A DNA stretch of 64,000 bases, taken from assembly GCF_009696675.1 (NCBI RefSeq), contig NZ_VULN01000006.1, positions 1-64,000 on the forward strand. The letters are read 5' to 3'. Of the stretch, positions 40,901 to 56,018 are shown piece after piece (the first letter of the stretch is position 1; each line of letters opens with the position of its first letter). This DNA comes from Acidaminococcus fermentans. GTDB lineage: Bacteria; Bacillota; Negativicutes; Acidaminococcales; Acidaminococcaceae. Both the position numbers and the translations under genes were made by a program. The notes below the pieces were generated by a model. The model was not told where the DNA came from. It worked only from the letters and a program-made list of their open reading frames with translations, and did not search any database.

Positions 40901-43900
40901 GTGCCGTATCATAGAGTCCGCTCTTCACATTGGTGATCTGCTTGCCGCCATTGGACAGGCCGTCGGCGGTCAGTTTCACCTTGTCGGCTTCGCTTCCCTG
41001 GTTCGGCGTCACCACAATGCCCTTGCCATCCACTACGGCAGTGGCTCCGCTGGTGCCGTCCTTGAAGGTGGCACTGGTCATATCGGTCAGCGTCCTGCTC
41101 AGACCAATGGTGATGGCTTTGCCAGTGGTATCCGCTGTGGTGGTCAAATTGTCGTCTGCCGCCTTCAGCTGGATGGAACCGCCCAGATCCTGCTTCACCA
41201 CATTGCCTGCATTGTCGCTGAGGCCGAAGCCACCGCCGGTTTCCTTCCCGTCCACAATGGACTTGGCCACCTGCTGGAGCTGGTCTTCCGTAGCCGCCCG
41301 ACCGCTGACGATGCCATCTTTCGACCATTTGGTGTTGGTCAGGCCCGTAATGTAATCCCCAGCAGCATCATTGGGGCTGGTGCCATTGTTGGCGATGGTC
41401 TGAGAACCAATCTTGATACCACTGCCTGTAGTCCCTGTAGTGGGTGCAAAGCTGATGGTGCCCATATTGGTGAGGTCCTTATTCAGCTTGACTGCCAGGC
41501 CGTCGCCAGCATCGTTCTTCACCACGCCGATGTTGTTATCAGTCAGATTGCCGGCAGCACCGCCGGTGATATTTAGGGTGCTGTTGAGGGTTGTGCTGAC
41601 GACTTTGGATGTATCATTTTTGGCATCATCACCGGCAAATTTCAGGCCATCTTCCAGGGTAGCAATGGTATGATAGGTGCCTTTGGCGGTATCCACATCA
41701 TATTTCAGCCGAGGTGAGCTGTCTGCAGAATTCAGGAAACCGGCACCGCCATAATCCTGATAAAGAGCAGAATACCGGCCGCCATTGTTCCCCATATGGA
41801 GGGACCCGTCACTGCCATCCATTTCAATATAAGCTCCGCCGGTACCGGTCACTCTGACCGTACCGTTGACCGTACTGGACCCGGCCGTCAGGCTGTGAGC
41901 CGTCAGGTCATTGTCCAACTTCACTGTGATGGTGCCATTATCCATGGTAGTGGTGATATTGTCCGTATTGTATGTATGGCCGTTCTGAGCAGCACCACCC
42001 TTGATACTGACTTTGCCGCCCAGCTGAGCCTTGTAGGCAGCACTTCCGCCCTCCTTCTCTGCCTCATTGGCTTCAAAATTCAAGCCCTGCTGCAGAGCCG
42101 CATTGCTGGCAATACCAGAAATCACCACATCCGTAGGAGTGCTTCCCGCTGCGTTATTTTTCACCTTCAGCGTTACCTTGCCGTCGCTGCCTACCGTGTA
42201 TTCACCACTGTCGGCAGCCACCAGATGGCTGTCCTGATTCAGCACATTGGTCATATCAATGCCCGGAATGGCATCACCGCCATTTTTCGTCAGATTCAGG
42301 GTCTTACCATCGGTGCTGACACTGCCGCCGGTTACATAGTAATCGTGGAGCCCGGTGAGTTGCCCAGTGGTCTTGTCATTCTTCCTGACTAAAGTCCCTG
42401 TGCCTTCCCCATTATTGCCATAAGAAACGGAGCCACTTTCTACATAAATATCCGAAGCACTGGCTTCCCCTTTGATGGTTTTCGCTACTTCATTCAGCTG
42501 ATCTTCCGTAGCTGCCCGGCCGGACATAAAATGGTCCGTCACCCATGCTGTATTTTTGAGTCCTGTAATACTGGTAATGTTTGACGTGGCACTGCCGTTG
42601 GCACCGCCGCCGGGCTGGCTGCCGATGTAAATACCATCGGTTCCATCCGTACTTCCCACACGGACCGTGGTGAAGTTTACATTGGGTTGGGTAGCAATGG
42701 TAATGGTTTTGCTGCTGTCAGTCGGTGTAAGAGCAATATTATCTCCCGCTGTAAAAGTAAGGGTCTTATTGGCAGGAGTAACCGCCAGGATCTGGTCTCC
42801 CACTTTGGCATTCCAGCCAGTATTCACTGTATCAGACACACTCTTCAGCTGATCTTCGGTGGCCGCACGACCACTCACAGCTGTACCATCCCAAGTTTTG
42901 TTGGTCAGGCCGGTCAGATATGTATCCGAGCCAGACTTGCCAAGGGTGGCCCCGCCAATGGTGGCCGTTCCCGTATTCCCATTCAGGGTAACTCGGTCCC
43001 CTACCGTCACGGTTCCAGCCGTGCCATCCAGGGCGATTTTCTTGTCGGCATCGCTGCCCAGGGTCACGGTGTCATTCAGGGAGACCTTGTAGTCCACCGT
43101 TCCGTCTGTGGTATTAGGAGTTCTTTCGACTTTCGTATTTGCCCCATCTCCGCTGACGGTTACGGTCTTGGCGGCGATATTCTTCACATCGCCGATATTG
43201 GCGGCATTGGTTTCTATTCCATAAACAGGGCTACCGGAGTCATCATCCCCGGACTTGCCACTGGCTACATCGGAAATCTGCTTACTGCCGCCGCTGATGC
43301 CGCTGAGGGTGACACTGGGACCATTGTTGATGGTCAGGCCGTTGCTGCCCAGAGTAGAAGAACCAGTGGTCATATTGCCACTATTTCCATCCACCGTAAT
43401 GGTTTTATCTCCTGTTCCCACAGTCACCTTGTCCGCCGTAAGCTGGGTGTCCATCTTCACGGTGATGATGCCGTTATCGTCGATTTCCGTGGTCAGGTTG
43501 TCCGTCTTGTAGGTGTGCCCATCCTGAGCATCGTTGGCGCGGACGGCCACCGTATCGCCCAGGTTCTTTTTGACCGTCTTATAGGTGCCATCTACCTTGT
43601 TGCTGGCCGAGAAATTCAGGCCTTGGGCGATGGCTTCCGTATTGGTGGTAATCTGGGTCTTGTTGCTGTCCACCACATCGGACACGCTCTTCAACTGATC
43701 TTCCGTAGCCGCACGGCCGGTGACAGGCTGGGTCTGCCCTACGGTCCAGGTGGTATTGTCCAATCCGGTAAGATAGTCACCGCTTTGGGCAGGATTATTC
43801 CCGTCGGTCTGGGTGCCCAATTTAGCGCCCCCAGCGGTCACTGTATCCAGCCCGGTGATATCCCTGGCCAGTTTCAGGGACAGGGTGGAACCATTGGCGG

Positions 43901-46577
43901 TAACGCCGATATTATTGCCCGTTGCCAGGTCAGTTGCACCGCCCTTTACGTCAAGCGTCTTGTCCAGTGCAACGCTGCCCGTTCCCGTATCTCCAGCCAG
44001 TTTCAGACCATCCCCGAGAGTAGCCACCGTATGGGCCGCGCCATCCCCATCGGTGTAGCTGAGGCGGCCCGTGCCAGTGGTACCGGAAAGTTCCGGTGTA
44101 TCAACATAACCGGCAGTGATGGTGGTGGCCTTGTTGGTACTGCTGCTGTCCGCTCCTACGATCTTGAGGGAGCCGGCCTGGCCTCCGTCAGCGGAAGTCC
44201 TTTCCGTACCGGCAGTGACGGAATCAAACACTGGATTCTTGTCCAGAGAAATGGAAAGCCGGTTGTTGGCCGTATCCGTCAGCACCTTGATGTTCTGGGT
44301 GGAGTATTCCGTATCTTCCTTCCGGCCGCTGCCCTGGATCTGGAGAGTCCCCCCCTGGTCTACATGGACAGAAGTGTCAGTATCATTGCCCTGGAAGTTC
44401 ATGCCCTTGGTTTCCACAGCCTTCAGCTGGGCCACGTTCACCGCATCGGAATCCGCAGACCCGGCAGCCAAATTGGTGATCTGGCGGCTGATGGTCTTAC
44501 CTTCTGCAACTGTCCCCCCCAGGGAAACACCCCCGGAAGTGGACACCCAAGTGGCTGCCTTAGCTGCATTGGCAGGATCCGTCATATCCGGAGCCAAATA
44601 GCCGGTAGATCCTTTTTCCCGATTGGCAACAGAGTGTGCGCCTAAAGCTACGCCACCATCTGCCGTGGCATTGGCACTGGTACCAAAAGCGGAAGATTCG
44701 ACAGCATTTGCCCCAGCCGAATAGCCGTAAGCAGCAGAACCGGTTTCCACCGCTTCTGCACCATAACCCACGGCCACAGCGGCTCCATGTTCGGTGGACT
44801 CTGCATCATCATTTTTCGTACCGGCCTGGGCTCCAAGGCCCATGGCAACCGAAAAATTTCCGCTGGCGTTGGTACTGTTGCCCACAGCCACCGACTGGGT
44901 ACCAGCAGCCTCATTGCCATAGCCGATGGCCAAGGAATTGATACCTGAAGCAGCGCTGTTCACACCCATGGACAAAGACAAATCGCCGGATGCTGTAGTT
45001 CCCACGCCAAAGGCCATGGAAGCCGAGCCACTGGCTCCATCATTGTAGTAATTGGCCAAGCTGTTTTCTGCAACCGGCGTTATCGAATTGCCATCATCAT
45101 CTTTATAGGCCGTCTTGATGCTCAGGAAGTGGCGGCCCGCCTGTTCCAGCTGGTCTTCTGTTGCCGCCCGGCCGGTCACATAATTTCCCGGCGTCCAGGT
45201 ACGGTTGGAAAGGCCCGTCACAAAGTTCCCCGATGCACTTGCCCGGACAGATTCCAGCTTGAGGGTGGCCCCATCGTCATTGAGACTGCCCGGCTTCATA
45301 TAATCATAGGTAAAGGACTGATTGCCGATCTGGATTGCTCCCACCTTGGCAAGGCCTTGGGTCCCGTCTAGGGAAATAAAATTCCCCGTGTCCGTGCTGA
45401 GGCCGGCGGAAATGGTGCCAGCCGTGCCGTCCAGCACCACCTGCTTGGCACCGGTGGTGTCGGTGCTGTCCTTCAACGTGACCTTGGGCTTCAGGCTGAT
45501 GGTGGTGGTCTGTACGCCGTCCTGGTCCGTGGTTTCTTCCGCATGGACGTTGGTTTCATCACCCTTGACCTTGATCTGGTTTTTAGCCGTTGCCACCGCT
45601 TCCGCTTTGGCCTTGGTCAACTGTTCCATGACCACCACGTCATGGTCATCGATGCCGTCGGCTACGTTGACCAGGCGGTTGTAGGCGTCAGAATCATAGG
45701 TGTTTTCCGTAACGATATGATTCTGATACTGTACCGTATAATATACATCACCTTTTTTATGGCCAAAGGATACAATACGACCTTCTGTATCGGCTGCACG
45801 AGAAGAATCAATGACAGAAGCCGTGGCTTCATAGCCGATGGCCACCCCATTGGCCACAGTCACCGTGGCCTGGTTGCCGGCCGCCACAGCGCTGGCAGCC
45901 CCTGCACTGGTGCTGCCGCCAGCGATGCCTACGGAATAGTTTCCCTGGATAGTGGAAGAATAGCCGCCTATGGCTACGGAGCCTACCCCATAAATAGGAA
46001 ATGGATTGGAGGCGTCGGCCGCATATTCATTTCTGTTGGCATCCAGAAGAGGATCCCCGTTTTTATCTACAGCCACTTTACCTGTAATATTGCCGGTACC
46101 CCCAATAACCACAGAATCTGCGCCAAAGGCTTTGTTGCCGCTGCCCCCACTGACCGTGGCAAATTGGCCCCCTGCCTGATTCTGAGTACCGCCGGTAACG
46201 CTGGAATGTTTCCCGGTGGCTTTATTCTGCATGCCACCGCTAATGCTGGAGGATTCGCCTACAGCTTCATTATCACCACCGCCGCTAACGCTGGAATTTT
46301 TCCCTTCGGCCTTGTTTTTTTCACCACCGCTGACTGTGGCATTTTCTCCTGTTGCCTGGTTGGTTGAAGCACCCCCAGTGACTTTCCCTGTTGCCGCAAA
46401 CGCTTCTGAACAGGGGCTCCCCATAAAGAGCACCGCTCCCAGGCCCAGCACGGCTACCGTCTTTCCTGCCGTGGACAGACAGGTGCTTTTTTCCTTTCCA
46501 GCCCGTTTAGCCAGCTCAGACACCACCACATAGCAGTGCCGGACCCGGCTCCAGATGACTTTGTAGATTTTGTTCAT
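37947..46577 (-). CDS. Giant trimeric autotransporter adhesin (YadA family) with a C-terminal coiled-coil extension
   Basis: A 2,876-residue surface adhesin. The N-terminus is an extended signal peptide region (NKIYKVIWSRVRHCYVVVSE, ESPR) ending near SEAFA. Two YadA-type head regions with 14-residue repeats follow: near 70-180 (xNxAxGxxSSVSGG) and near 515-650 (AxGxxSxAxG). A long stalk contains seven GRAATE(D/E)QL motifs. The YadA anchor lies near 2735-2815 (LNFAAGFGHYRSANAAAIGA ... GVTFSLD). After the barrel come about 60 more residues of heptad coiled coil ending EQLSAKQ, where YadA proteins normally stop. Start 46577 has GGGAGG at 8 nt. A consensus promoter lies about 110 bp upstream. Confidence 0.93.
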   Translation of the reverse strand: MNKIYKVIWSRVRHCYVVVSELAKRAGKEKSTCLSTAGKTVAVLGLGAVLFMGSPCSEAFAATGKVTGGASTNQATGENATVSGGEKNKAEGKNSSVSGGGDNEAVGESSSISGGMQNKATGKHSSVTGGTQNQAGGQFATVSGGSGNKAFGADSVVIGGTGNITGKVAVDKNGDPLLDANRNEYAADASNPFPIYGVGSVAIGGYSSTIQGNYSVGIAGGSTSAGAASAVAAGNQATVTVANGVAIGYEATASVIDSSRAADTEGRIVSFGHKKGDVYYTVQYQNHIVTENTYDSDAYNRLVNVADGIDDHDVVVMEQLTKAKAEAVATAKNQIKVKGDETNVHAEETTDQDGVQTTTISLKPKVTLKDSTDTTGAKQVVLDGTAGTISAGLSTDTGNFISLDGTQGLAKVGAIQIGNQSFTYDYMKPGSLNDDGATLKLESVRASASGNFVTGLSNRTWTPGNYVTGRAATEDQLEQAGRHFLSIKTAYKDDDGNSITPVAENSLANYYNDGASGSASMAFGVGTTASGDLSLSMGVNSAASGINSLAIGYGNEAAGTQSVAVGNSTNASGNFSVAMGLGAQAGTKNDDAESTEHGAAVAVGYGAEAVETGSAAYGYSAGANAVESSAFGTSANATADGGVALGAHSVANREKGSTGYLAPDMTDPANAAKAATWVSTSGGVSLGGTVAEGKTISRQITNLAAGSADSDAVNVAQLKAVETKGMNFQGNDTDTSVHVDQGGTLQIQGSGRKEDTEYSTQNIKVLTDTANNRLSISLDKNPVFDSVTAGTERTSADGGQAGSLKIVGADSSSTNKATTITAGYVDTPELSGTTGTGRLSYTDGDGAAHTVATLGDGLKLAGDTGTGSVALDKTLDVKGGATDLATGNNIGVTANGSTLSLKLARDITGLDTVTAGGAKLGTQTDGNNPAQSGDYLTGLDNTTWTVGQTQPVTGRAATEDQLKSVSDVVDSNKTQITTNTEAIAQGLNFSASNKVDGTYKTVKKNLGDTVAVRANDAQDGHTYKTDNLTTEIDDNGIITVKMDTQLTADKVTVGTGDKTITVDGNSGNMTTGSSTLGSNGLTINNGPSVTLSGISGGSKQISDVASGKSGDDDSGSPVYGIETNAANIGDVKNIAAKTVTVSGDGANTKVERTPNTTDGTVDYKVSLNDTVTLGSDADKKIALDGTAGTVTVGDRVTLNGNTGTATIGGATLGKSGSDTYLTGLTNKTWDGTAVSGRAATEDQLKSVSDTVNTGWNAKVGDQILAVTPANKTLTFTAGDNIALTPTDSSKTITIATQPNVNFTTVRVGSTDGTDGIYIGSQPGGGANGSATSNITSITGLKNTAWVTDHFMSGRAATEDQLNEVAKTIKGEASASDIYVESGSVSYGNNGEGTGTLVRKNDKTTGQLTGLHDYYVTGGSVSTDGKTLNLTKNGGDAIPGIDMTNVLNQDSHLVAADSGEYTVGSDGKVTLKVKNNAAGSTPTDVVISGIASNAALQQGLNFEANEAEKEGGSAAYKAQLGGKVSIKGGAAQNGHTYNTDNITTTMDNGTITVKLDNDLTAHSLTAGSSTVNGTVRVTGTGGAYIEMDGSDGSLHMGNNGGRYSALYQDYGGAGFLNSADSSPRLKYDVDTAKGTYHTIATLEDGLKFAGDDAKNDTSKVVSTTLNSTLNITGGAAGNLTDNNIGVVKNDAGDGLAVKLNKDLTNMGTISFAPTTGTTGSGIKIGSQTIANNGTSPNDAAGDYITGLTNTKWSKDGIVSGRAATEDQLQQVAKSIVDGKETGGGFGLSDNAGNVVKQDLGGSIQLKAADDNLTTTADTTGKAITIGLSRTLTDMTSATFKDGTSGATAVVDGKGIVVTPNQGSEADKVKLTADGLSNGGKQITNVKSGLYDTAQNKPVDISTITAGSPMLQNGATIGDLQTVSNGVKTELTDKGLNFKGNDATTTVHRNLGDTLTIQGTGADGRDYDGGANVQVKADKNANTLTVQLDRDLNAHTLTLGKASTGTGTGEAGKLILNGTNKDNGMSPVSIGVTYRGNQDKEAMKTAMSRITYKGGNGNDHTVATLEDGLQLAGDNGEALNTTLDKKVTIKGGVAKDKLVDNTTDPTKNNNIGVVASQDKDGNTTLSLQLAKDITGLNTVTAGTVVMGNQSVVSDGKVTETGNFVAGLENTDWDGKDYVSGRAATEDQLKKVNDSITKVLGNGTFAITAGGRGEAVDATIEQNLGSAIRIFGDAPVTNEKNDGSGDFWDRSKANILTKVKKDHDGNDYVSVELQDHLDVGVHGDGKTIEGTDGSMQFKGKSAKEVNITGDTGITLSDNGKKAAALRQADGAGYLDLTGTAGTQATVSVHTVAKNLAQQDQTRLTYTDQGNKAHEVATLEDGLIFAGDTDDNVSRTLNGTLKIYGGADVNSLSDGKNIGVVASSDGLQLKLAKNLTGIESITGLTNTTITSADFATKGRAATEEQLKQAMSSVTTVTSGGGFGLTADDGKSVKADLGQTVSVKGSSNITTSVSEDGKSINIKLNNNVDLGSEGSISAGGVTINNSGIDAGGKNITNVNSGIVKGDDSDNTNAANIGDVKKLAGEAAQGAVDSLGTRDFTGDDGETISRKLGKSMKLSGGADTAKLTDKNIGVVKNADGTGLDIKLSKELTGLTSVTTGNSTLNNDGLTINNSEGKAGTTITNSGIKIAANGEGTHNVEISSNVSMGGQQIHDVAPGTKPTDAVNVSQLGGVVNGVNNAITRLDSRVDRVGAGASALAALHPLEFDPEDKLNFAAGFGHYRSANAAAIGAFYQPTESVRFNVGGSFGGGENMVNAGVTFSLDPKRRDRFQSRIVLMRTVQQLRSDNETLRQDNQKVHAQLDAMNDRLNKLTALVEQLSAKQ

Positions 46578-46686
46578 GACCATATCCTCCCTGAAAGATT
46601 CCTCTTTCTGCCGTAAAAAGTCTACTCTTTTGCTGTACTTTTAAATTATAGAAAACATAACATCGTTCTATACATATTATATTTCC

Positions 46687-46847: not shown

Positions 46848-47076
46848 GACCGGCTCCGCCGGCTTGAAAGGGAAACGCAGCCATGGGCTGCTAACCCACC
46901 ACCAGCCTGGCGGCTGGTCCCCCGCCCTTGCAAAGGGACGGATAAATGGCACGCAGGCTTCGCCCTGGTGCCAGAAGCGGGGGCATGGCCCCAGCGTATA
47001 TCCGCCCTTTTCAAGGGCGGGGGACCGTTGCGCTTGCGCAAGGGTGGTGGGTTAGCAGCGTCAGCTGCGTTTCCCT
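46848..47076. repeat. Hairpin-module repeat, two copies in inverted orientation
   Basis: The forward copy (46871-46945) is GCAGCC-loop-GGCTGC, TAACCCACCACC, a short stem AGCC-TGGC-GGCT, GGTCCCCCGCCCTT and a G-rich arm. The inverted copy (46998-47076) carries the stem TTGCGC-AA-GCGCAA instead. An extra hairpin CCGGC/GCCGG precedes it. No gene in 46716-47145. Confidence 0.8.
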
Positions 47077-47145
47077 TCAACAGCATCTGCCTCCGTCAGA
47101 TGGGTTCCTTTCCCCTAGGATGCCAAACCCTGAAACAATTAAAAA

Positions 47146-47171
47146 GGGGGTGTGAAAAAATTCACACCCCC
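47146..47171. terminator. Hairpin identical to that at 187-212
   Basis: GGGGGTGTGAA, AAAA loop and complement: the same 26 nt as after the LarA-like gene. Confidence 0.55.
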
Positions 47172-47186
47172 GATTACTGTTCTCTT

Positions 47187-47207
47187 GTCACTTGTCACTG
47201 GTCGAGT
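47187..47207. repeat. Short 7-bp tandem repeat
   Basis: GTCACTT, GTCACTG, GTCGAGT. Confidence 0.6.
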
Positions 47208-47210
47208 GAC

Positions 47211-47256
47211 AAAAATCCGACTGCTCCAGTTTTTTCTGGCGGCAGCCGGATTTTTT
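47211..47256 (-). terminator. Terminator of the RelB-like gene
   Basis: Stem AAATCCG-A-CTGC / GCAG-C-CGGATTT, with an inner CCAG/CTGG, directly past the stop codon; a T-run follows on the minus strand. Confidence 0.7.
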
Positions 47257-47529
47257 TCAAATATTGAAATCCTGTTTGATTTCCTCAAACATGTCTTCCG
47301 GTCTCTTGGTGGCCGTTCCCTGGGCCGGAGTGGGATCCACCGGTACCTGGTGGATGGCTGCCCGACGGCAGTCGGCGGACACTTCAAAGGGAATCCGGTT
47401 TTCCCGGACCGTTCTTCTGGCAAAAATGGTGAAAGCGGTGGTCATGTTCATGCCCACGTTGCTGCAAAATTCCTCAAACTCTTTTTTCAGATCCGCATCC
47501 ATACGGATATTTACATTAACGGATGCCAT
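47257..47529 (-). CDS. RelB/DinJ-family antitoxin, no toxin next to it
   Basis: A 90-residue protein with the ribbon-helix-helix N-terminus of RelB/DinJ antitoxins (SVNVNIRMDADLKKEFEEFC, MTTAFTIFARRTVRENRIPF). Such proteins bind their own promoter and neutralise a RelE/YafQ-type RNase. No toxin gene lies on either side: a terminator follows at once, and repeats lie upstream. It may be a leftover or may act on a toxin elsewhere. Confidence 0.82.
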   Translation of the reverse strand: MASVNVNIRMDADLKKEFEEFCSNVGMNMTTAFTIFARRTVRENRIPFEVSADCRRAAIHQVPVDPTPAQGTATKRPEDMFEEIKQDFNI

Positions 47530-47623
47530 AGTCCATCAACCCCTCTGTACTTGATGTTTTGCATTATACAGCCGTTGCAATGGAATGTCAACAAGGAAGT
47601 GTTGCCGGATGCAGCACTTCCTG

Positions 47624-47665
47624 TCACTAGCCGGCAGTCACTAGTCTCCAGCCGAAGGAAGGAGG
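47624..47665. repeat. Degenerate 7-bp tandem repeat
   Basis: Six 7-mers: TCACTAG, CCGGCAG, TCACTAG, TCTCCAG, CCGAAGG, AAGGAGG. Between here and 47836 lies a degenerate unit (47674-47740) beginning CGAGATGGGTCAGATGCGCG; no gene is visible. Confidence 0.75.
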
Positions 47666-47836
47666 AGACAGGCCCGCGAGATGGGTCAGATGCGCGAAAA
47701 AGATGTCAGAACCGGTCTTTACGGGCCTCTCAGACATCAGATGGCAGCTTTGAACGATTGGGAAGCAGTAACGCCATGCTTATCCTGTGATCCATTATTG
47801 TCTGACAGCCCTGCAAAATATCGGCTATCGCCGATG

Positions 47837-47883
47837 CCCCCACCACCATGCTTCGCATGGTCCCCCGCCCCTCCCAGGGCGGA
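47837..47883. repeat. Partial hairpin-module repeat
   Basis: CCCACCACC, stem ATGC-TTC-GCAT, then GGTCCCCCGCCC and a partner arm. The GCAGCC hairpin is missing. Confidence 0.6.
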
Positions 47884-47916
47884 CTTTTTGTTGGTGCAAT
47901 CCACCCCCGATTCCCG

Positions 47917-48063
47917 CCAGGCGCACGAGATGGGTCCAGATGCGCGAAAGCGGGGAGTTTCGAATGCGGCATAGTACTACCTTCGACTCCCGCCCTGGGC
48001 GTCAGAGTGGGTCAGATGCGCGAAAGGAGGGATTTGGTTCGTGGCACAAGCCCCCGTCTCCCA
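47917..48063. repeat. Two hairpin units in tandem before the 128-bp element
   Basis: Each unit has a GC-rich start, AGATGGGTCCAGATGCGCGA or AGTGGGTCAGATGCGCGA, then an imperfect hairpin. The pair recurs at 50087-50235 before the second 128-bp element. Confidence 0.7.
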
Positions 48064-48191
48064 CCAGGCGCGGAAGATGTACCCAGATACGCGAAAGCGG
48101 GAATTTTGGAGCTGGGCATAGTACTAAGTGGTACATGCCCAGCTCCAAAACTCCCGCTGACAAAGTAGATGGGTGCATATTCCGCGCCTGG
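48064..48191. repeat. 128-bp nested hairpin element, copy 1
   Basis: Outer stem CCAGGCGCGGAA (48064-48075) pairs with TTCCGCGCCTGG (48180-48191). A 24-bp inner stem (48096-48119 with 48135-48158, one mismatch) closes a short loop. It ends 15 bp before the stop codon of the 48207-49814 gene. Copies 2 and 3 have a different inner-stem sequence that still pairs. Confidence 0.85.
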
Positions 48192-48206
48192 GTTATGCGT
48201 TAGCCC

Positions 48207-49814
48207 CTAGTACGCCGCCACCGTCCCATCCGTCCTCCCCTCCGTGGCCCCCACCAGGGTGCCGTCTTCCCGGCGCCAGATGATCTGGCCCCGGCCGAAG
48301 GTGGAGCGGTCCTGTTTCACGACGATTTCGTGGCCCCGGGCCCGGAGGCCTTCTATAATGGCCGGATCCACCTGAGCTTCCACTTCCACTTTTTTCCCTT
48401 CGATCCACTGCCACCGGGGTGCATCCAGGGCGGCCTGGGGATTCATATGGAAATCCAGGGAGTTCAGAATTACCTGGAGATGGCCCTGGGGCTGCATGAA
48501 GCCTCCCATGACCCCGAAGGGCCCCACGGCCTTTCCGTCTTTGGTAAGAAAGCCGGGGATGATGGTGTGGTAGGGTTTCTTCCCAGGGGCCAGGCAGTTG
48601 TCCATGGCCGGATCCAGACTGAAATTGTTTCCCCGGTCGTTGAGGGCGATGCCGGTGCCGGGGATCACCATGCCGGAGCCGAAGCCCCGGAAGTTGCTCT
48701 GGATGAAGGATACCATGTTCCCTTCTCCATCAGCAGTGCACAGGTACACGGTGCCTCCGCTGAAGGGTTTCCCCCACCGGGGTTCCAGGGCCCGGTCCCC
48801 GATCAGGCTCCGGCGCTGATCCGCATAGTCCTGGCTCAGCAGGTCTTCCACCCGGGCGTGCATGAACCGGGGGTCCGCCACATAGTGCCGGGCATCGGAA
48901 AAGGCCAGTTTCATGGCTTCGATCTGTTTGTGGTAGCTGTCCAAGGTTTCCCGTTCCTCCAGATGGAAGCCCTTCATGATGTTCAGGGCCATCAGGGCGG
49001 TGATCCCGTGGCCGTTGGGAGGAATCTCCCACACATCATAGCCCCGGTAGTCGGTGCGGATGGGATCCACCCACTGGGCCCGGTAGCCGGCCAGGTCTTC
49101 TTTCCGGAGATAGCCTCCGGTGGCCCGGCTGAACTGGTCGATTTTGTCTGCCAGTTCACCCCGGTAGAAGGCTTCGCCGCCGGTTTGGGCCAGCCGTTCC
49201 AGGGTCCGGGCATGATCCGGGAAGGCAACGGTTTCCCCTACTTCCGGAGCGGATCCTGTGGGCAGGAAGGTGGAGAAAAAGCCGGCAAAAGCCGGGTCGT
49301 CCCTAAAGGGAGCGAAGGTGGTTTCGGCGGCTTTCCACAGTTTTCCCGCAATGGGGGAAACCGGGAACCCGTCCCGGGCGTATTCAATAGCCGGTTCAAA
49401 GAGTTTGGCAAAAGGCAGCCGGCCGAACCGCCGGTGGAGTTCTGCCCAGGCAGACACAGCCCCGGGGACGGTGACCGGGATCCAGCCCCGCTGGGGCATT
49501 TCCGTATACCCGGCGGCCAGGACCTTGTCCCGGGTCAGGAGCGCCGGGGCCGGGCCGCTGCCGTTGAGGCCGTAGAGACGGTCTTTGATCCACACCAGAG
49601 CAAAGGCGTCGCTGCCCAGGCCGTTGCAGTCAGGTTCCACCACCGTAAGGCAGATGGCAGTGGCCAGGGCCGCATCCACCGCGTTGCCCCCCTGGAGCAG
49701 CATCCGCAGCCCCGCCTGGGCCGCCAGAGGCTGGCCGGTACAGACCATCCCCCGCCGGGCCAGGATCACCCGGCGGCGGGAAGGATAAGGATAGGAAGAA
49801 AGATTGTAATCCAT
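48207..49814 (-). CDS. Gamma-glutamyltransferase family protein (YwrD-like), no signal peptide
   Basis: A 535-residue GGT-family protein of a different branch: AAQAGLRMLLQGGNAVDAAL near residue 35, GLGSDAFALV, and the processing site SGGTVYLCTADGEGNMVSF with the catalytic Thr. GKKPYHTIIPG and GPFGVMGGFMQPQGHLQVIL follow. It resembles YwrD-type proteins more than the two GGTs at 6-10 kb. No signal peptide. AAGGAGG precedes the ATG. It lies alone between repeat-filled spacers, after the DUF4143 gene. Confidence 0.87.
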   Translation of the reverse strand: MDYNLSSYPYPSRRRVILARRGMVCTGQPLAAQAGLRMLLQGGNAVDAALATAICLTVVEPDCNGLGSDAFALVWIKDRLYGLNGSGPAPALLTRDKVLAAGYTEMPQRGWIPVTVPGAVSAWAELHRRFGRLPFAKLFEPAIEYARDGFPVSPIAGKLWKAAETTFAPFRDDPAFAGFFSTFLPTGSAPEVGETVAFPDHARTLERLAQTGGEAFYRGELADKIDQFSRATGGYLRKEDLAGYRAQWVDPIRTDYRGYDVWEIPPNGHGITALMALNIMKGFHLEERETLDSYHKQIEAMKLAFSDARHYVADPRFMHARVEDLLSQDYADQRRSLIGDRALEPRWGKPFSGGTVYLCTADGEGNMVSFIQSNFRGFGSGMVIPGTGIALNDRGNNFSLDPAMDNCLAPGKKPYHTIIPGFLTKDGKAVGPFGVMGGFMQPQGHLQVILNSLDFHMNPQAALDAPRWQWIEGKKVEVEAQVDPAIIEGLRARGHEIVVKQDRSTFGRGQIIWRREDGTLVGATEGRTDGTVAAY

Positions 49815-49886
49815 GAGAATACCTCCTTGTAAAGAAGACTGTGTACACCAGTCCGTAGGGGCCGCACGCCAGGCGGCCCGCTGTGG

Positions 49887-49907
49887 GTTCGTCGTTTGTC
49901 GTTTGTC
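49887..49907. repeat. Short 7-bp tandem repeat
   Basis: GTTCGTC, GTTTGTC, GTTTGTC. Confidence 0.65.
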
Positions 49908-49917
49908 ATTAAGGAAG

Positions 49918-50070
49918 AAAACCGCACCGCGGTTTTCTAAAAAGAGAAACGCAGCCTATGGCTGCTAACCCACCACCAGCCTGGCGGCTGGTCCCCAGCT
50001 ACGGCATAAGCGACCTCGCTATCCGCTGAAGCGGATGCTCCCTGCTTACGCCCTTGAAAAGGGCGGATAT
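49918..50070. repeat. Hairpin-module repeat with a short insertion
   Basis: A small hairpin AACCGC-ACC-GCGGTT (49920-49935) is followed by GCAGCC-TAT-GGCTGC, CCACCACC, stem AGCC-TGGC-GGCT, then GGTCCCC. About 50 bp containing ATCCGC-TGAA-GCGGAT interrupts the module before GCCCTTGAAAAGGGCGGATA. Confidence 0.75.
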
Positions 50071-50086
50071 AAAAAGAGAGAGAGGG

Positions 50087-50235
50087 CCAGGCGCACGAGA
50101 TGGGTCCAGATGCGCGAAAGCGGGGATTTTCGAGGGCGGCACAGTACTCGCCTCCGATTCCCGCCCTGGGCGTCAGAGTGGGTCAGATGCGCGAAAGCGC
50201 GGGATTTGGTTCGTGGCATAACCTTCGGTTTCCCG
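50087..50235. repeat. Two hairpin units in tandem before the 128-bp element
   Basis: Same order and sequence type as 47917-48063, beginning CCAGGCGCACGAGATGGGTC. Confidence 0.7.
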
Positions 50236-50363
50236 CCAGGCGCGGAAGATGTGCCCAGATACGCGAAAGCAGCGGATTTTGGCTGAGGCATAGTACAAGG
50301 ACGTACATGCCCCAGTCAAAATCCGCTGCTGACAAAGTAGATGGGTGCATCTTCCGCGCCTGG
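50236..50363. repeat. 128-bp nested hairpin element, copy 2
   Basis: Outer stem CCAGGCGCGGAA / TTCCGCGCCTGG at 50236-50247 and 50352-50363. The inner stem starts AGCAGCGGATTTTGG and pairs across a loop at about 50290-50310. It ends 7 bp before the stop codon of the ATPase gene. Confidence 0.85.
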
Positions 50364-50370
50364 TTATGCG

Positions 50371-51684
50371 TTAGCCCAGCAAAAATCCCATATACATCGG
50401 CATCTCCACCACCTGCCCTTTCCGGGACACGTTGTCGGTGGTCAGCTGGATGGCCTGTTCCACCTGGTATTTTTCCGGCTGCTGGAGGAGGGTCTTGAGG
50501 CTTTTGGTGTTGCCGGTGGAGGGAGTGGCCTTCACCAGGGTGCTCTTGCCCTGGCAGCGGATGACGAAATCCACTTCCAGGCCGGAGTTCTTGTGGTAGT
50601 AGTAGAGTTTCCGGCCACCCTTGCTGAGGAGATCGGCAGCCAGGCTTTCGTAGACGGCGCCCTGGCAGCCGGAAAGATCTCCCTGGAGGAGCTTCAGCCG
50701 GTCATCCCCGGTGAGCATGGCGGCATAGAGGCCCACGTCCTTCATATAGACCTTGAAAATGGAATCGATGGCATGGCGTTCCAGGGGCAGCCCCGGTTCC
50801 GTCAGGTTGTAGCACCGGCTGACGATGCCCGCCTCTTCCAGCCAGGAGAGAGCCCCTTCGAACTGGGAAGCCTTGGAGCCTTTTTTCAGCTGGGCATACT
50901 GGTATTTCTTGTTTTCCTTGTTCAGCTGGAGGGGCACCGCGTCCAGTACGGTCTTCAGCTTGGCCCGGGCCCGTTTGTTCACGTCCACGAACAGGTTCTC
51001 CTCATAATCCCGGAGGATGGCCTGCTGCTGTTCCAGCACCGCATTCATGTCATGGGTCTGGACATAGGTTTCCACTACGGCAGGGTAGCCGCCTACCAGG
51101 GCATACTGGCGGAGCAGTTCGTTGAGCCGCAGGTGAAGGGCTTCCGGCACGGGGGTTTCCTTGTCCAGGCTCTGGTGGAGCATGTCCAGCACCGGAGTGG
51201 TGATCCCGTTGGCCCAGAGGAATTCCTCAAAGTCCAGGGGCACCATGTTCACCACGGTTTCGCAGCCCACTGCAATGGGAGCGGGCTCTTTCCCGTAGCC
51301 TTTCACCCCCAGCAGGGACCCGGCAGCGATCACGTCATACCGGCCGTCCATTTTAAAGGCCTTCAGGGCGGTACGGGCTTCGGGACATTCCTGGATCTCG
51401 TCCAGCACCAGGACGGTTTTATAGGGTTCAAACACCGCTTCGGGACCGGCCAGGGCGGTGATCAGCATCACCAGGTAGTTCACATCCATGGAGTCCCGGA
51501 AAATAGCCGCATAGTCGGGCTTTTCCTGGAAGTTCAGATACACCACATGGTCGTATTCCTTTTTGGCAAAATCCAGGATGGAAGTGGTTTTCCCACAGTG
51601 GCGGCAGCCCTTGACCACCAGGGGATTGTGCTGCGGAACCTGTTTCCAGGTCTGCAGGAATTTTTCGATCTTGCGCTGAAGCAT
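50371..51684 (-). CDS. DUF4143-type AAA ATPase (second)
   Basis: A 437-residue protein with Walker A GCRHCGKTTSILDF near residue 26, Walker B TVLVLDEIQECPEA near residue 90, and a DUF4143 C-terminus ending in a nuclease-like SGLEVDFVIRCQGKSTL. Same family as 32160-33356, but too different to be a recent duplicate. AAAGAGGAAT precedes the ATG. No partner gene indicates a role. Confidence 0.85.
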   Translation of the reverse strand: MLQRKIEKFLQTWKQVPQHNPLVVKGCRHCGKTTSILDFAKKEYDHVVYLNFQEKPDYAAIFRDSMDVNYLVMLITALAGPEAVFEPYKTVLVLDEIQECPEARTALKAFKMDGRYDVIAAGSLLGVKGYGKEPAPIAVGCETVVNMVPLDFEEFLWANGITTPVLDMLHQSLDKETPVPEALHLRLNELLRQYALVGGYPAVVETYVQTHDMNAVLEQQQAILRDYEENLFVDVNKRARAKLKTVLDAVPLQLNKENKKYQYAQLKKGSKASQFEGALSWLEEAGIVSRCYNLTEPGLPLERHAIDSIFKVYMKDVGLYAAMLTGDDRLKLLQGDLSGCQGAVYESLAADLLSKGGRKLYYYHKNSGLEVDFVIRCQGKSTLVKATPSTGNTKSLKTLLQQPEKYQVEQAIQLTTDNVSRKGQVVEMPMYMGFLLG

Positions 51685-51790
51685 AAGGATTCCTCTTTCT
51701 TTCCCTCAAATACAGAATGGCAATAGAAGCTCCTTACACTTTACAGGAAACGGGTCCATTTTTCAAGGAACTTTTCGGATTTTTTCCGTT

Positions 51791-53059
51791 TTATTTTCCA
51801 GCAGCCTTCCGGAAGACTTTTTCCACCAGTTTCAGGGTCACCTGGCAGGATTTTTCCAGGGAAGGCAGGGGCAGGAATTCGTACCGGGAGTGGAAATTCA
51901 GGGCCCCGGTGAAATAATTGGGGGTAAAAATCCCCCGGGTGGACAAATAGGAGCCGTCGGTGCCCCCCCGCATGGCAATGGTTTTGGGAGTAATGGCCAG
52001 TTCGTCCAGGGCTTCGTAGAGAAAGTCCACTGCCTGCCGGTTGTCCGGAGTCATGGCATCGGCAATGTTCCCGTAGATGTCTTCCAGGGTGCAGCGGACC
52101 TGGGCCCGGGGTTCCTGGTGCTTCAGCCGTTCCACATTGGCCAGGATGGTCTGTTTCCGGGCCTCGTAACGGGCTTTGTCATGATCCCGGATGGCCAGCT
52201 GGACCGTGGCGTGGGTGGCGTTGGACTGGATGCTCTTGATCCAGATGTAGCCTTCCTTCCCTTCGGTGCATTCCGGAGTTTCCTTCCGGTCGAAGAAGTT
52301 GGCGAAATCCACCGCCAGCAGGGTAGGGTTCACCAGGTTCCCCTTGGCATTCATGGGATGGGCGCTGACCCCCTGGATGTCCACCTGGGCGGAACCGGCA
52401 TTGAAGGTTTCGTACACCACTTCTCCCAGGGCGCAGCAGTCGATGGTGTAGGCAAAATCCACCGGGAACCGGCTGATCTCCAGGGCTTTGGACCCTTTCA
52501 GCCCCACTTCCTCGTCCGGAACGAAGGCCACGTAAATGGCCCCGTGGTGGATTTCCGGATGGTCCGTAAAATACTGGAGCATGGTCATCACATTGGCCAC
52601 CGCGGCCTTGTTGTCCGCCCCCAGGACGCTGGTGCCGTCGGTGAACACAATGTCCTGTCCCACATAATCCGCCAGCTCCGGGTGTTCGGCGGCCTTCATG
52701 AGGATGCCTTTTTCAGCGTTGAGGACCAGGTCTCCCCCCGGGTAATTCCGGACCACCTGGGGATGGACCTCCGGACTCAGGTTCACATCCACCGTATCCA
52801 GATGGCAGCAGAAGCCGATTTTGGGCACAGAACCGGTGAAACCTTCCGGCAGGTTGGCCGGCAGGTATCCGGTAAGGACGCACCGGTCGCTGAGATGCAG
52901 GTCCTCCAGATCCATGATTTCCAGTTCCGCTTCCAGCTGCCGGGCCATATGCCACTGGTCCTGGGTGCTGGGGACGGAGGAAATTCCGGCCCGGCTCTGG
53001 GAAGGGATGTTCACATACCGGAGAAAACGGTCAAGCAGTTGTTGGGTCAGTTGAGACAT
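51791..53059 (-). CDS. pepT: Peptidase T (tripeptide aminopeptidase)
   Basis: A 422-residue M20 metallopeptidase with PepT zinc-site regions: GFCCHLDTVD near residue 82 (His), LGADNKAAVAN near 145 (Asp), FVPDEEVGLKGS near 180 (Glu pair), TIDCCALGEVVYE near 200 (Asp) and NFHSRYEFLP near 390 (His). It removes the N-terminal residue from tripeptides in the cytoplasm. ATG 53059 has AAGGAGGAA at 6 nt; a TTG two codons earlier is poorer. Bases 51685-51790 show nothing clear. Confidence 0.93.
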   Translation of the reverse strand: MSQLTQQLLDRFLRYVNIPSQSRAGISSVPSTQDQWHMARQLEAELEIMDLEDLHLSDRCVLTGYLPANLPEGFTGSVPKIGFCCHLDTVDVNLSPEVHPQVVRNYPGGDLVLNAEKGILMKAAEHPELADYVGQDIVFTDGTSVLGADNKAAVANVMTMLQYFTDHPEIHHGAIYVAFVPDEEVGLKGSKALEISRFPVDFAYTIDCCALGEVVYETFNAGSAQVDIQGVSAHPMNAKGNLVNPTLLAVDFANFFDRKETPECTEGKEGYIWIKSIQSNATHATVQLAIRDHDKARYEARKQTILANVERLKHQEPRAQVRCTLEDIYGNIADAMTPDNRQAVDFLYEALDELAITPKTIAMRGGTDGSYLSTRGIFTPNYFTGALNFHSRYEFLPLPSLEKSCQVTLKLVEKVFRKAAGK

Positions 53060-53101
53060 GGGCAATTCCTCCTTGGGTGTTTTGGGGATATTATAGCATA
53101 G

Positions 53102-53127
53102 GATGCGGCTGCCAGGGCAGCCGCATC
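53102..53127. terminator. Perfect hairpin before pepT
   Basis: A 12-bp stem (GATGCGGCTGCC and complement) with a 2-nt loop. It would end transcripts coming from tex. Confidence 0.6.
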
Positions 53128-53167
53128 AGTCTCTGGTCTCTAGTCACTGGTCTCTGGCCAAAGGAGG
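53126..53167. repeat. Degenerate 7-bp tandem repeat
   Basis: Six 7-mers: TCAGTCT, CTGGTCT, CTAGTCA, CTGGTCT, CTGGCCA, AAGGAGG. Confidence 0.75.
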
Positions 53168-53266
53168 AAAACCGTACCGCGGTTTTCTGAAAAAAAGACG
53201 CAGCCGGAGGCTGCTAACCCACCACCATCCTTGCGGATGGTCCCCCGCCCTTGAAAAGGGCGGATA
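53168..53266. repeat. Hairpin-module repeat
   Basis: Hairpin AACCG-TACC-CGGTT (53169-53186), then GCAGCC-GGA-GGCTGC, CCACCACC, stem ATCC-TTGC-GGAT, GGTCCCCCGCCCTTGAAAAG and GGCGGAT. Confidence 0.8.
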
Positions 53267-53280
53267 AAAAAAGGGGGAGG

Positions 53281-53408
53281 CCAGGCGCGGAAGATGTGCC
53301 CAGATACGCGAAAGCAGCGGATTTTGGCTGAGGCATAGTACAAGGACGTACATGCCCCAGTCAAAATCCGCTGCTGACAAAGTAGATGGGTGCATATTCC
53401 GCCCCTGG
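53281..53408. repeat. 128-bp nested hairpin element, copy 3
   Basis: Nearly identical to copy 2 with the same length; one outer-stem base differs (GCCCCTGG). It ends 1 bp before the stop codon of tex. Confidence 0.85.
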
Positions 53409-53409
53409 G

Positions 53410-55581
53410 TTATGCGTCAGCCGTTACCAAGGCCAGCCCTATCCTCCCCCTCTCCTCCTCCACGCTGATCACCTTCACCTGGACCGTTTCTCCTACACTG
53501 ACCACATCCAGAGGGTGTTTGATCTTTTTCTGGCTCAGGTGGGAAATGTGGATCAGGCCGGCGGTTTTTATGCCGATGTCCACGAAGGCGCCAAAGTCGG
53601 TGACGTTCCGGATGGTGCCCCGGAGGATGGTGCCCACTTTGATGTCGGAAAGCTTCACGATGTTCTGCCGGGTAAGAGGTGCGGGCAGGTCCGCCCGGGG
53701 ATCCCGGCCGGGAGCCACCAGGGCATCCAGGATGTCATGGACCGTGGGTTCCCCGGCTTCCAGTTCCCGGGCCAGCCGGGCTTCATCCACCTGTTTCCGC
53801 CGGGTGGCCAGCCGGGCCAGTTTTTCCCTGTCCTTCAGGTCTTCCAGGCCGAAGCCCAGTTTTTCCAGGATTTTCTTGGCCAGATCATAGGATTCCGGAT
53901 GGACCGGGGTATCGTCCAGAGGAGATTTCCCGTTGTGGATCCGAAGGAACCCGGCACACTGGGTAAAGGCTGCAGGCCCCAGCCGGGGCACCTTCAGCAG
54001 CTGCCGCCGTCCGGTGAACCGGCCGTTGGCGTTCCGCCAGGCCACTATGTTCCCGGCGGTGGCGGCGGTGATCCCGGCCACATGGCGGAGCAGGGCGGGG
54101 GACGCAGTGTTCAGGTCCACTCCCACATGGTTCACCACCCGTTCCACCACCCCGTCCAGGGTACCGGTGAGCGCCTTCTGGTCCACATCATGCTGGTACT
54201 GGCCCACCCCTATGGCCTGGGGATCGATCTTCACCAGTTCCGCCAGAGGGTCCTGGACCCGCCGGGCCAGGGATACGGCGCCCCGGATGGTCACATCGTA
54301 TTCCGGCAGCTCTTCCTGGGCCAGTTTGGAAGCGGAATAGACAGAAGCTCCCGCTTCATTGGTAATGAGATAATGGACGTCCAGATGGTGGGCCTGGATC
54401 AGGCTGGCGGCAAACTGTTCTGTTTCATAGGAGGCGGTGCCGTTGCCAATGGACAGGAGGGTCACATGGTGCTTCCGGATCATGGAAAGGAGCAGGGCTT
54501 CCGCTTCCTTCTTCCGGGCTTCGTTCTGGGTCACCTGGATCACCCCATGGTCCACCACCTGGCCGGTGGGATCCACCACCGCCACTTTGCAGCCGGTCCG
54601 ATAGCCCGGATCCAGGCCCATGACCGTATGGCCTCCCAGAGGTGCCTGGAGCAGCAGCTGGCCCAGGTTGGCCCCAAAGATCCTGATGGCCTGGGCTTCC
54701 GCCTGTTCCGTAAGCCGGTTCCGGATTTCCCGTTCCAAAGCCGGGAACAGCAGCCGCTTCCAGCTGTCTGCCAGGGCTTCCTTCAGCTGGTCCCGGTAGA
54801 TGCAGGGACGGCGGAGGACCCGCCATTCCATTTTCCGCAGGGCGTTCTGTTCCTCCCACACCAGATGGACCTTCAGGCAGCCTTTCTTTTCTCCCCGGTT
54901 GATGGCCAGCACCCGGTGGGAGGGCAGGGTCCGGACCGGTTCCTGATAGTCCTTGTACATGAGAAAGGTCTGGGCTCCCTCAGCATCTTCCACCAGTTCC
55001 GTCCGGATCATCCCATGGTTCCACAGCTGGTCCCGGAGGGTCTGCCGGAGGGTGGGGTCTTCCGCCGCCATTTCCGCCACAATGTCCCGGGCTCCGGCCA
55101 GGGCGTCTTCCGGGGTTTCCACCCCTTTATCCGGGTCCACATAGGCCCGGGCGGCGGAAAGGGTATCTCCTTTCTGGTCCCGCTGGAGAAGGAAGGCAGT
55201 GGCCAAGGGTTCCAAGCCTTTTTCCCGAGCCTGTTGGGCACGGGTACGCCGCTTTTGCTTGTAAGGCAGGTAATAATCTTCCAGTTCCGTCAGTTTCTGG
55301 GCCTTTTCAATGGCGGTACGCAGTTCCGGGGTCAGTTTCCCCTGTTCGTCGATTTTGGTCAGGATCTCCTCCTGGCGCTTCACCAGGTTCCGGAGTGTCC
55401 CCAACCGTTCTTCGATGGTCCGGATCTGTTCGTCCAAAAGGGATCCGGTTGCCTCCTTCCGGTACCGGGCAATAAAGGGAACGGTGTTCCCTCCGTCCAG
55501 CAGTTCCACGGTTTTTTCCACCTGCCAGGGCTGGACGGACAGTTCCCGGGCAATGAGAGGGGCGATGTCAGTTGGTTTCAT
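53410..55581 (-). CDS. tex: Tex-family RNA-binding transcription accessory protein
   Basis: A 723-residue protein with the full Tex architecture: N-terminal helical domain, YqgF-like domain (VMGLDPGYRTGCKVAVVDPT near residue 325), helix-hairpin-helix region (NTASPALLRHVAGITAATAG near residue 495), and a C-terminal S1 domain (GTILRGTIRNVTDFGAFVDI). Tex affects transcription and is near-universal. ATG 55581 has GAAAGGAC. The last residues (TADA) abut the 128-bp hairpin. Confidence 0.95.
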   Translation of the reverse strand: MKPTDIAPLIARELSVQPWQVEKTVELLDGGNTVPFIARYRKEATGSLLDEQIRTIEERLGTLRNLVKRQEEILTKIDEQGKLTPELRTAIEKAQKLTELEDYYLPYKQKRRTRAQQAREKGLEPLATAFLLQRDQKGDTLSAARAYVDPDKGVETPEDALAGARDIVAEMAAEDPTLRQTLRDQLWNHGMIRTELVEDAEGAQTFLMYKDYQEPVRTLPSHRVLAINRGEKKGCLKVHLVWEEQNALRKMEWRVLRRPCIYRDQLKEALADSWKRLLFPALEREIRNRLTEQAEAQAIRIFGANLGQLLLQAPLGGHTVMGLDPGYRTGCKVAVVDPTGQVVDHGVIQVTQNEARKKEAEALLLSMIRKHHVTLLSIGNGTASYETEQFAASLIQAHHLDVHYLITNEAGASVYSASKLAQEELPEYDVTIRGAVSLARRVQDPLAELVKIDPQAIGVGQYQHDVDQKALTGTLDGVVERVVNHVGVDLNTASPALLRHVAGITAATAGNIVAWRNANGRFTGRRQLLKVPRLGPAAFTQCAGFLRIHNGKSPLDDTPVHPESYDLAKKILEKLGFGLEDLKDREKLARLATRRKQVDEARLARELEAGEPTVHDILDALVAPGRDPRADLPAPLTRQNIVKLSDIKVGTILRGTIRNVTDFGAFVDIGIKTAGLIHISHLSQKKIKHPLDVVSVGETVQVKVISVEEERGRIGLALVTADA

Positions 55582-55602
55582 TTTGTTTGTCCTTTCACAG
55601 AA

Positions 55603-55630
55603 AGGGAGCTGCTGCACAAGCAGCAGCTCC
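55603..55630. terminator. Hairpin upstream of tex
   Basis: Stem GGGAGCTGCTG / CAGCAGCTCC directly upstream of the tex ribosome binding site. Confidence 0.5.
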
Positions 55631-55631
55631 C

Positions 55632-55645
55632 GTCAATGGTCAATA
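55632..55645. repeat. Short 7-bp tandem repeat
   Basis: GTCAATG, GTCAATA, followed by GCCGAAGG. Confidence 0.5.
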
Positions 55646-55657
55646 GCCGAAGGAAGA

Positions 55658-55764
55658 AACCCGCGGCAGCGGGTTTCCGGGAAAGAAAACGCAGCCAAAG
55701 GCTGCTAACCCACCACCATTGCGCAAGCGCAACGGTCCCCCGCCCTTGAAAAGGGCGGATATAC
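55658..55764. repeat. Hairpin-module repeat, forward copy
   Basis: Hairpin AACCCGC-GGCA-GCGGGTT, GCAGCC-AAA-GGCTGC, CCACCACC, stem TTGCGC-AA-GCGCAA, GGTCCCCCGCCCTTGAAAAG. A second GGGCGGATATACGC stretch follows at 55826. Confidence 0.8.
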
Positions 55765-55889
55765 GCTCTGGCTGGCGCTGACCGTAGGTATCATGGTGGC
55801 AACCAGTGTGTGGGCTTGAAAAGGGCGGATATACGCTTGGGCTGGCGCCCATTGTTTTTTCAGTACAAGGGCATGAGCCCACGTACTTA

Positions 55890-55963
55890 TTATCCGCCCT
55901 TTTCAAGGGCGGGGGACCAGCCGTCAGGCTGGTGGTGGGTTAGCAGCGCCAGCTGCGTTTCCC
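55890..55963. repeat. Hairpin-module repeat, inverted copy
   Basis: The module is read from the other strand, with stem AGCC-TGAC-GGCT and GCAGC-TGGC-GCTGC. With the forward copy at 55658 it makes a large inverted repeat, as at 46.9 kb. Confidence 0.8.
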
Positions 55964-55970
55964 TTCAAAA

Positions 55971-55988
55971 AAATTTGCCTGCAAATTT
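55971..55988. repeat. 18-bp near-palindrome, also at 60515
   Basis: AAATTTGCCTGCAAATTT; the identical 18-mer occurs at 60515-60532. Confidence 0.65.
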
Positions 55989-55997
55989 CTCATTCAG

Positions 55998-56018
55998 CTG
56001 GAGACCAGTCACCGAAGG
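55998..56018. repeat. Short 7-bp tandem repeat
   Basis: CTGGAGA, CCAGTCA, CCGAAGG. Confidence 0.55.

Follow-up and report, generated by a model that had tools for sequence, protein, structure and literature searches.

We propose, with moderate confidence, that an element found at gene ends in Acidaminococcus fermentans, here called E, is a non-coding palindromic interspersed repeat similar to REP, ERIC and RPE, which belongs to a hairpin family of Bacillota, spreads over evolutionary time and acts locally as a gene-end hairpin. E is highly structured with covarying pairs, asymmetric between its two strands, positioned at stop codons, present in many Bacillota genomes and subject to turnover between species. 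The window analysed is a 64,000-nucleotide stretch of contig NZ_VULN01000006.1. E consists of a 128-bp nested hairpin followed by a 14-nt tail, GTTATGCGTTAGCC. The window contains three complete copies together with four left halves. In the whole genome there are about 13 complete copies, and a blast search with E yielded 21 matches grouped in few clusters. The three 128-bp hairpins, at 48064-48191, 50236-50363 and 53281-53408, correspond to the 163-nt direct-repeat family D2. The copies and fragments in the window are as follows.

47679-47699, plus strand: small left-core fragment of E (GATGGGTCAGATGCGCGAAA)
47917-47979, plus strand: left half of an older E, cut at the hairpin apex (..GGCATAGTACTA, ending there), left core at 47937, right core absent
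47994-48049, plus strand: second left half, cut at the apex and adjoining complete copy 1, left core at 48013
48064-48205, plus strand: E copy 1, complete, with the hairpin at 48064-48191 and the right end GTTATGCGTTAGCC at 48192-48205
50087-50148, plus strand: left half of an older E, cut at the apex, left core at 50107
50165-50221, plus strand: second left half, cut at the apex and adjoining complete copy 2, left core at 50184
50236-50376, plus strand: E copy 2, complete
53281-53422, plus strand: E copy 3, complete

Spacers 1 and 2 each contain two left halves (47917-48049 and 50087-50221), located between the complete hairpin and a module of an unrelated repeat, family A; the first-pass annotation had not distinguished these halves.

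Read along the plus strand, E starts with the outer stem CCAGGCGCGGAAGATGTGCC and the motif CAGATACGCGAAAG, followed by the inner stem, an apex of GTAC-loop-GTAC, the motif CTGACAAAGTAGATGG, the returning outer stem and the tail. The inner stem is constant in length and varies in sequence. All three hairpins in the window fold far better than shuffled sequences on both strands, with z about -12 to -16, and also do so as DNA. Alignment of 11 copies of E revealed that 96.8% of the cells are paired and that 28 of the 51 pairs show two-sided changes. None of 500 shuffles reached this level, and sliding the partner by one column decreased the pairing to about 40%. The first-pass annotation had proposed covariance testing, and the covariation of E is indeed strong, beyond both the slid and the shuffled controls. 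In the class-wide alignment 23 of 26 pairs covary, at a depth where hairpin alignments can blur the variable inner stem. The mismatch sites of the class-wide copies are conserved as G.A, at columns 7.117 in 35 of 42 copies and at columns 17.107 and 18.106 in 36-37 of 42, with a related pair at columns 25.98/26.97. In addition, loop columns 22 and 102 of alignment A4 are unpaired yet covary (G.A in 20 copies, T.C in 15 and A.A in 6), which suggests a non-canonical pair under selection.

The position of E is tightly linked to the ends of genes. Of the 12 complete copies of this genome outside inner tandem positions, 10 have their right end between -13 and +16 nt relative to an opposite-strand stop codon (binomial P about 5e-9, assuming a chance rate of 0.1 that is an estimate from intergenic length), and most copies of three related species abut stop codons likewise. 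For several genes E itself supplies the stop codon, as GGCTAA, GGCTGA or GCATAA, and both tex and a threonine-aldolase-like gene have gained a C-terminal -ADA from it. In the window, a single nucleotide separates the right end of copy 1 from the stop codon of the gene at 48207-49814 (minus strand), GGCTAA of copy 2 provides the TAA stop of the gene at 50371-51684 (minus strand), and GCATAA of copy 3 provides the stop of tex (53410-55617, minus strand) and contributes ADA as C-terminal residues. In other families, the relatives L170, L176 and L178 are likewise adjacent to stops, which fall in or beside the conserved outer arm TGATAAG. Among phylum- and class-level loci, a convergent gene end was found at the right boundary in 17 cases versus the left boundary in 6, a hand count in which short spurious frames are possible. 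Such tight targeting of stop codons goes beyond ordinary insertion plus selection and counts against the reading of E as a mobile repeat.

The structure signal, namely the G.U excess and the conserved tandem G.A mismatches, is confined to one strand. The paired columns contain 33 G.T versus 11 A.C in the Acidaminococcus alignment A2 and 52 versus 16 in a strand-neutral arm alignment (19 copies versus 1), and the class-wide alignment A4 contains 94 G.U versus 13 A.C cells (37 copies versus 0). At protein genes, the structured strand is antisense to the abutting gene. In stable-RNA operons it is sense in all six copies observed, which are located as follows.

L179 and L180, sense: relatives of E before 23S, with one L179 copy inside 23S
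L179:1355-1445, L179:978-1066 and L180:949-1037, sense: positions of the relatives in the 23S rRNA gene and the 16S-23S spacer
L215, sense: relative upstream of 16S
L209, sense: relative between tRNA genes
L214, sense: relative before a tRNA gene

Since the bias resides on the antisense strand at protein genes and on the sense strand in rRNA and tRNA operons, transcription-linked strand-biased mutation is no easy explanation, and selection at the level of RNA or of single-stranded DNA can account for it. Survivor bias could also underlie the antisense orientation, if copies with the better-folding strand in sense were cut or stalled more strongly. One earlier suggestion was a family of structured RNAs in 3' UTRs. 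It holds in that E is structured, covarying and located at gene ends, but its reading as a 3'-UTR RNA belonging to the upstream gene is doubtful, as the G.U tolerance and the conserved G.A sites lie on the strand antisense to that gene.

Tentatively, E might instead be a structured RNA class transcribed antisense to the adjacent gene, that is, a multi-copy sRNA or antisense RNA with a 3' end overlapping the stop codon. The G.U wobble and the tandem G.A motifs would then be retained because selection acts on RNA. The 94 versus 13 cells and the G.A sites on one strand only are consistent with this, as are the compensatory changes at fixed loci and the finding that the structured strand is the transcribed one in rRNA and tRNA operons. 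However, hairpins of single-stranded DNA also tolerate G.T better than A.C, and E varies in place between species, forms arrays and breaks at the apex, an unusual behavior for sRNA genes. With similar reserve, E may be seen as the representative in Acidaminococcus of a yet undescribed class of structured RNAs across Bacillota, characterized by tandem G.A loops and a GUAC apex, with RNA-level selection on one strand and stop-codon-directed insertion.

The phyletic distribution of E was assessed with two models. With model R1, 7 of the 9 genomes of the genus, 21 of the 59 of the family and 40 of the 300 of the class contained E-like hairpins; as R1 was built from few sequences and may catch generic long hairpins, these counts are upper bounds. 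Model R2 was built on 42 class-wide copies, so that many class-level copies are included by construction, and it found the core of E in 52 of the 398 Bacillota genomes sampled, often in several copies each, with scores up to 79 bits outside the A. fermentans genome. The possibility that the rRNA-spacer matches in L179 and L180 are false positives of R1 was ruled out, as R2 scores them at 57-59 bits and the core is present. Comparison with Rfam 15, another check proposed at the outset, gave no match to any described family, E remaining below the curated gathering score of every one. The Rfam matches in the loci of E are rRNA, tRNA and riboswitches elsewhere in those loci, together with long-hairpin microRNA models at E-values of at least 0.03, far below gathering, which share the shape only. 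Searches of viral contigs, phages and plasmid collections with E returned no match, and no E-like motif was found in the text passages considered of two structured-RNA surveys (PMC8632094, PMC6429828). In one class-level family (L181, L182, L190 and L191) a longer palindrome of MITE-like appearance, its ends resembling CTAGTGTCCCACCTCGTTC / GAACGAGGCGGGACACTAG, surrounds the core of E. Another relative, at L099:1501-1641, is located in the variable arm of a putative FMN riboswitch recognized by eye.

Comparison of orthologous loci revealed that E comes and goes between species. At the 3' end of guaA it is present in the A. fermentans genome and in G001, G004, G007 and G008, with copies that differ from each other, and absent in G002, G003 and G005; an ordinary terminator-like hairpin is visible there in G002 and G005. 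At ggt it is shared with G004 and absent at the 93% identical gene of G001, while at tex it is shared with G001 and absent in G004 and G008. In another genus, the prmA-rsmE and ligA sites are occupied in some genomes, the former being empty in three and the latter in G036, and no palindrome was seen at the empty sites. None of these empty/filled comparisons (guaA, ggt, tex, prmA-rsmE and ligA) gave a clean target duplication, the sequences being too diverged to show one. Nor did a transposase, an autonomous version of E or a strain-level insertion come to light in the loci studied, which weighs against the mobile-repeat reading. The outer stem of E acts as an inverted repeat. Insertion of E together with pepT as a cassette at tex was considered and dropped, as relatives show inversion or loss of pepT and not its insertion. 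The loop of a terminator hairpin, hinted at as a target by the A/T-flanked outer stems and by L099, was likewise rejected, since a pre-existing palindrome is lacking at the empty sites of prmA-rsmE and ligA.

Two-sided changes were found at fixed loci, in ligA between G037 and G038 and in prmA between G035 and G038. The ligA stem, for example, changes from GGGGTC/GACCCC in G038 to GGGGGC/GCCCCC in G037 with the pairing kept. Such compensatory changes at occupied orthologues suggest a function of E in place rather than pure selfishness. Arrays of E grow at the gene-proximal end, and the older units end at the hairpin apex, as left halves in the window and as a right half in L056. The loss of one half at the apex is what would be expected if the DNA palindrome were cut there. 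In G001 a left and a right half of E enclose a gene identified by eye as DHFR/RibD-like, the only gene seen in such a position, and the same gene in G008 is accompanied by a right half only. The two loci are given below.

L112, about 11740-10510, minus strand: DHFR/RibD-like gene locus
L115, about 9450-8390, minus strand: DHFR/RibD-like gene locus

The position of E is also that of a terminator, A and T runs border the outer stem in other genera, and G002 and G005, which lack E at guaA, have an ordinary terminator-like hairpin instead. On this view E would be a hairpin for bidirectional termination or 3'-end processing, and its copies would stem from divergence in place and gene conversion, without mobility. 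We consider this unlikely, since the conserved internal loops and apex are unneeded for termination, and copies are found in the tight operon prmA-rsmE, in a riboswitch-like leader (L099) and inside 23S rRNA. A T run after a GC hairpin in the direction of the gene occurs in several other genera and is not regular in Acidaminococcus.

REP units are 20-40 nt long; E, at about 128 bp, is longer and contains two conserved internal-loop motifs and a core that is conserved phylum-wide. Similar to REP, E is a multi-copy extragenic palindrome; a large share of REPs lie within 15-20 nt of a gene 3' end and down-regulate translation (PMC12306157), and E is likewise palindromic and intergenic. In E. coli, 260 of 496 REPs are proposed to act in translation, because REPs less than 16 nt from a stop codon lower translation, and those within 15 nt of stops stall ribosomes (PMC12306157). 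E also resembles ERIC/IRU, the MITE-like NEMIS and RUP. ERIC is a 127-bp long imperfect hairpin at gene 3' ends with orientation-dependent effects on mRNA (PMC2229807, PMC10969869), destabilizing the upstream mRNA (PMC2229807). In contrast to ERIC and MITEs, E has a different sequence, a nested hairpin with conserved G.A motifs and a Bacillota host. The Rickettsia RPE, palindromes of 105-146 bp forming a long stem-loop, are like E in length and shape, but reside in frame inside genes whereas E abuts stop codons. As with the intervening sequences of 23S rRNA, one relative of E is inside a 23S rRNA gene and others are in rRNA spacers, all sense, although most copies of E are at protein genes. 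It is possible that the relatives in the 23S gene and spacer represent the origin of rRNA intervening sequences.

The attC sites of integrons share with E a hairpin after the stop codon with the opposite strand folded, a variable terminal stem and conserved unpaired features. E might accordingly be a recombination site of single-stranded DNA, folded on the strand opposite the gene and moved by some recombinase or HUH enzyme. The position and the folded strand are those of attC, which folds on its bottom strand (PMC6393395). The conserved unpaired motifs and variable terminal stem of E and the DHFR-like gene between two halves in G001 are further points in favor. We nevertheless regard this reading as rather improbable. 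No integron integrase over the TIGR02249 cut-off was found in any of the 59 family genomes, and weak matches also occur in each of the 14 control genomes. E lacks a RYYYAAC / GTTRRRY pair at the hairpin base, and the right end GTTATGCGTTAGCC has no complementary left partner. Moreover, E is sense in rRNA operons, there is no cassette array, and the gene order around the window is ancestral and not cassette-like. An integron or cassette array was rejected on the integrase result (0/59 genomes) and the ancestral synteny.

The three spacers mix at least four repeat types, namely E, family A, a short GC hairpin and degenerate 7-mers. Family A (D4/D5) is a GC-rich module of about 75 bp with three small hairpins, GCAGCC..GGCTGCTAACCCACCACC..GGTCCCCCGCCCTTGAAAAGGGCGGATA. 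It gave 85 blast matches in the genome, mostly as inverted pairs 100-350 bp apart, and is sparse among the related loci examined, with one good match, in G004. The features other than E are listed below.

46873-47078: family A inverted pair, MITE/BIME-like and unrelated to E, in the adhesin/RelB spacer
49917-49938: GC hairpin (AAAACCGCACCGCGGTTTTC / AAAACCGTACCGCGGTTTTC) between the A module and the 7-bp repeats
49941-50071, plus strand: family A module, interrupted
53128-53159: degenerate 7-bp repeats of the GTCTCTG/GTCACTA or GTCACTG type
53168-53188: GC hairpin (AAAACCGCACCGCGGTTTTC / AAAACCGTACCGCGGTTTTC) between the A module and the 7-bp repeats
53181-53266, plus strand: family A module, single
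55660-55966: family A inverted pair, in the tex/ecf spacer

The 7-mers are less clear at 47623-47656 and 49886-49908. The inverted pairs at 46873-47078 and 55660-55966 flank the region. A third long nested palindrome, of the GACGTCAGAACCGG..CCGTGTCTGACGTC type, was seen in spacers at 47704-47806 of the window and at L052:9024-9180; it ends in a T run in L052 and looks like another repeat family. A 2878-aa open frame of the window (37947-46583, minus strand) contains repeats typical of trimeric autotransporter adhesins.

The first-pass annotation had described a fixed order of modules after the stops at 48207, 50371 and 53410, a GC hairpin in two of the three spacers, and inverted later modules in the tex/ecf and adhesin/RelB spacers. 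All of these are present. It had further taken the arrangement as more organised than chance and, as one option, as a non-autonomous mobile element. As E and family A differ in their genome-wide distributions (21 versus 85 matches), the fixed order is a local stacking of independent families. A single composite element is thereby not supported, while E alone is organised far beyond chance and has features of a non-autonomous mobile repeat. A processing and termination platform, another option of the annotation, is possible. That the whole arrangement is a chance stacking of unrelated repeats with no selected structure is very improbable: family A, the GC hairpins and the 7-bp repeats are independent of E, but the covariation and stop-codon abutment of E are far beyond controls, which refutes chance for E and leaves it plausible for the order of the other modules.

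The REP (PMC12306157) and ERIC (PMC2229807) analogues favor a palindromic repeat with an mRNA-side hairpin acting at the stop codon. For such a repeat we infer mobility, an effect on mRNA and cutting at the apex. New sites would gain copies of E over evolutionary time, and at protein genes E would settle against stop codons with the structured strand antisense. The complementary hairpin would then form at the stop codon, within the mRNA 3' end, and by analogy most likely affect RNase III processing, the release of ribosomes or decay by 3' exonucleases. The sense structured strand of the rRNA and tRNA operons is probably removed by processing. Annotating the long gene-end hairpins of these genomes simply as terminators should be avoided. 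E, whose core is conserved in many Bacillota and which is strictly tied to stop codons and absent from Rfam, makes it testable how small palindromic repeats choose gene ends, which strand matters, and whether such repeats control translation termination and mRNA decay outside enterobacteria.
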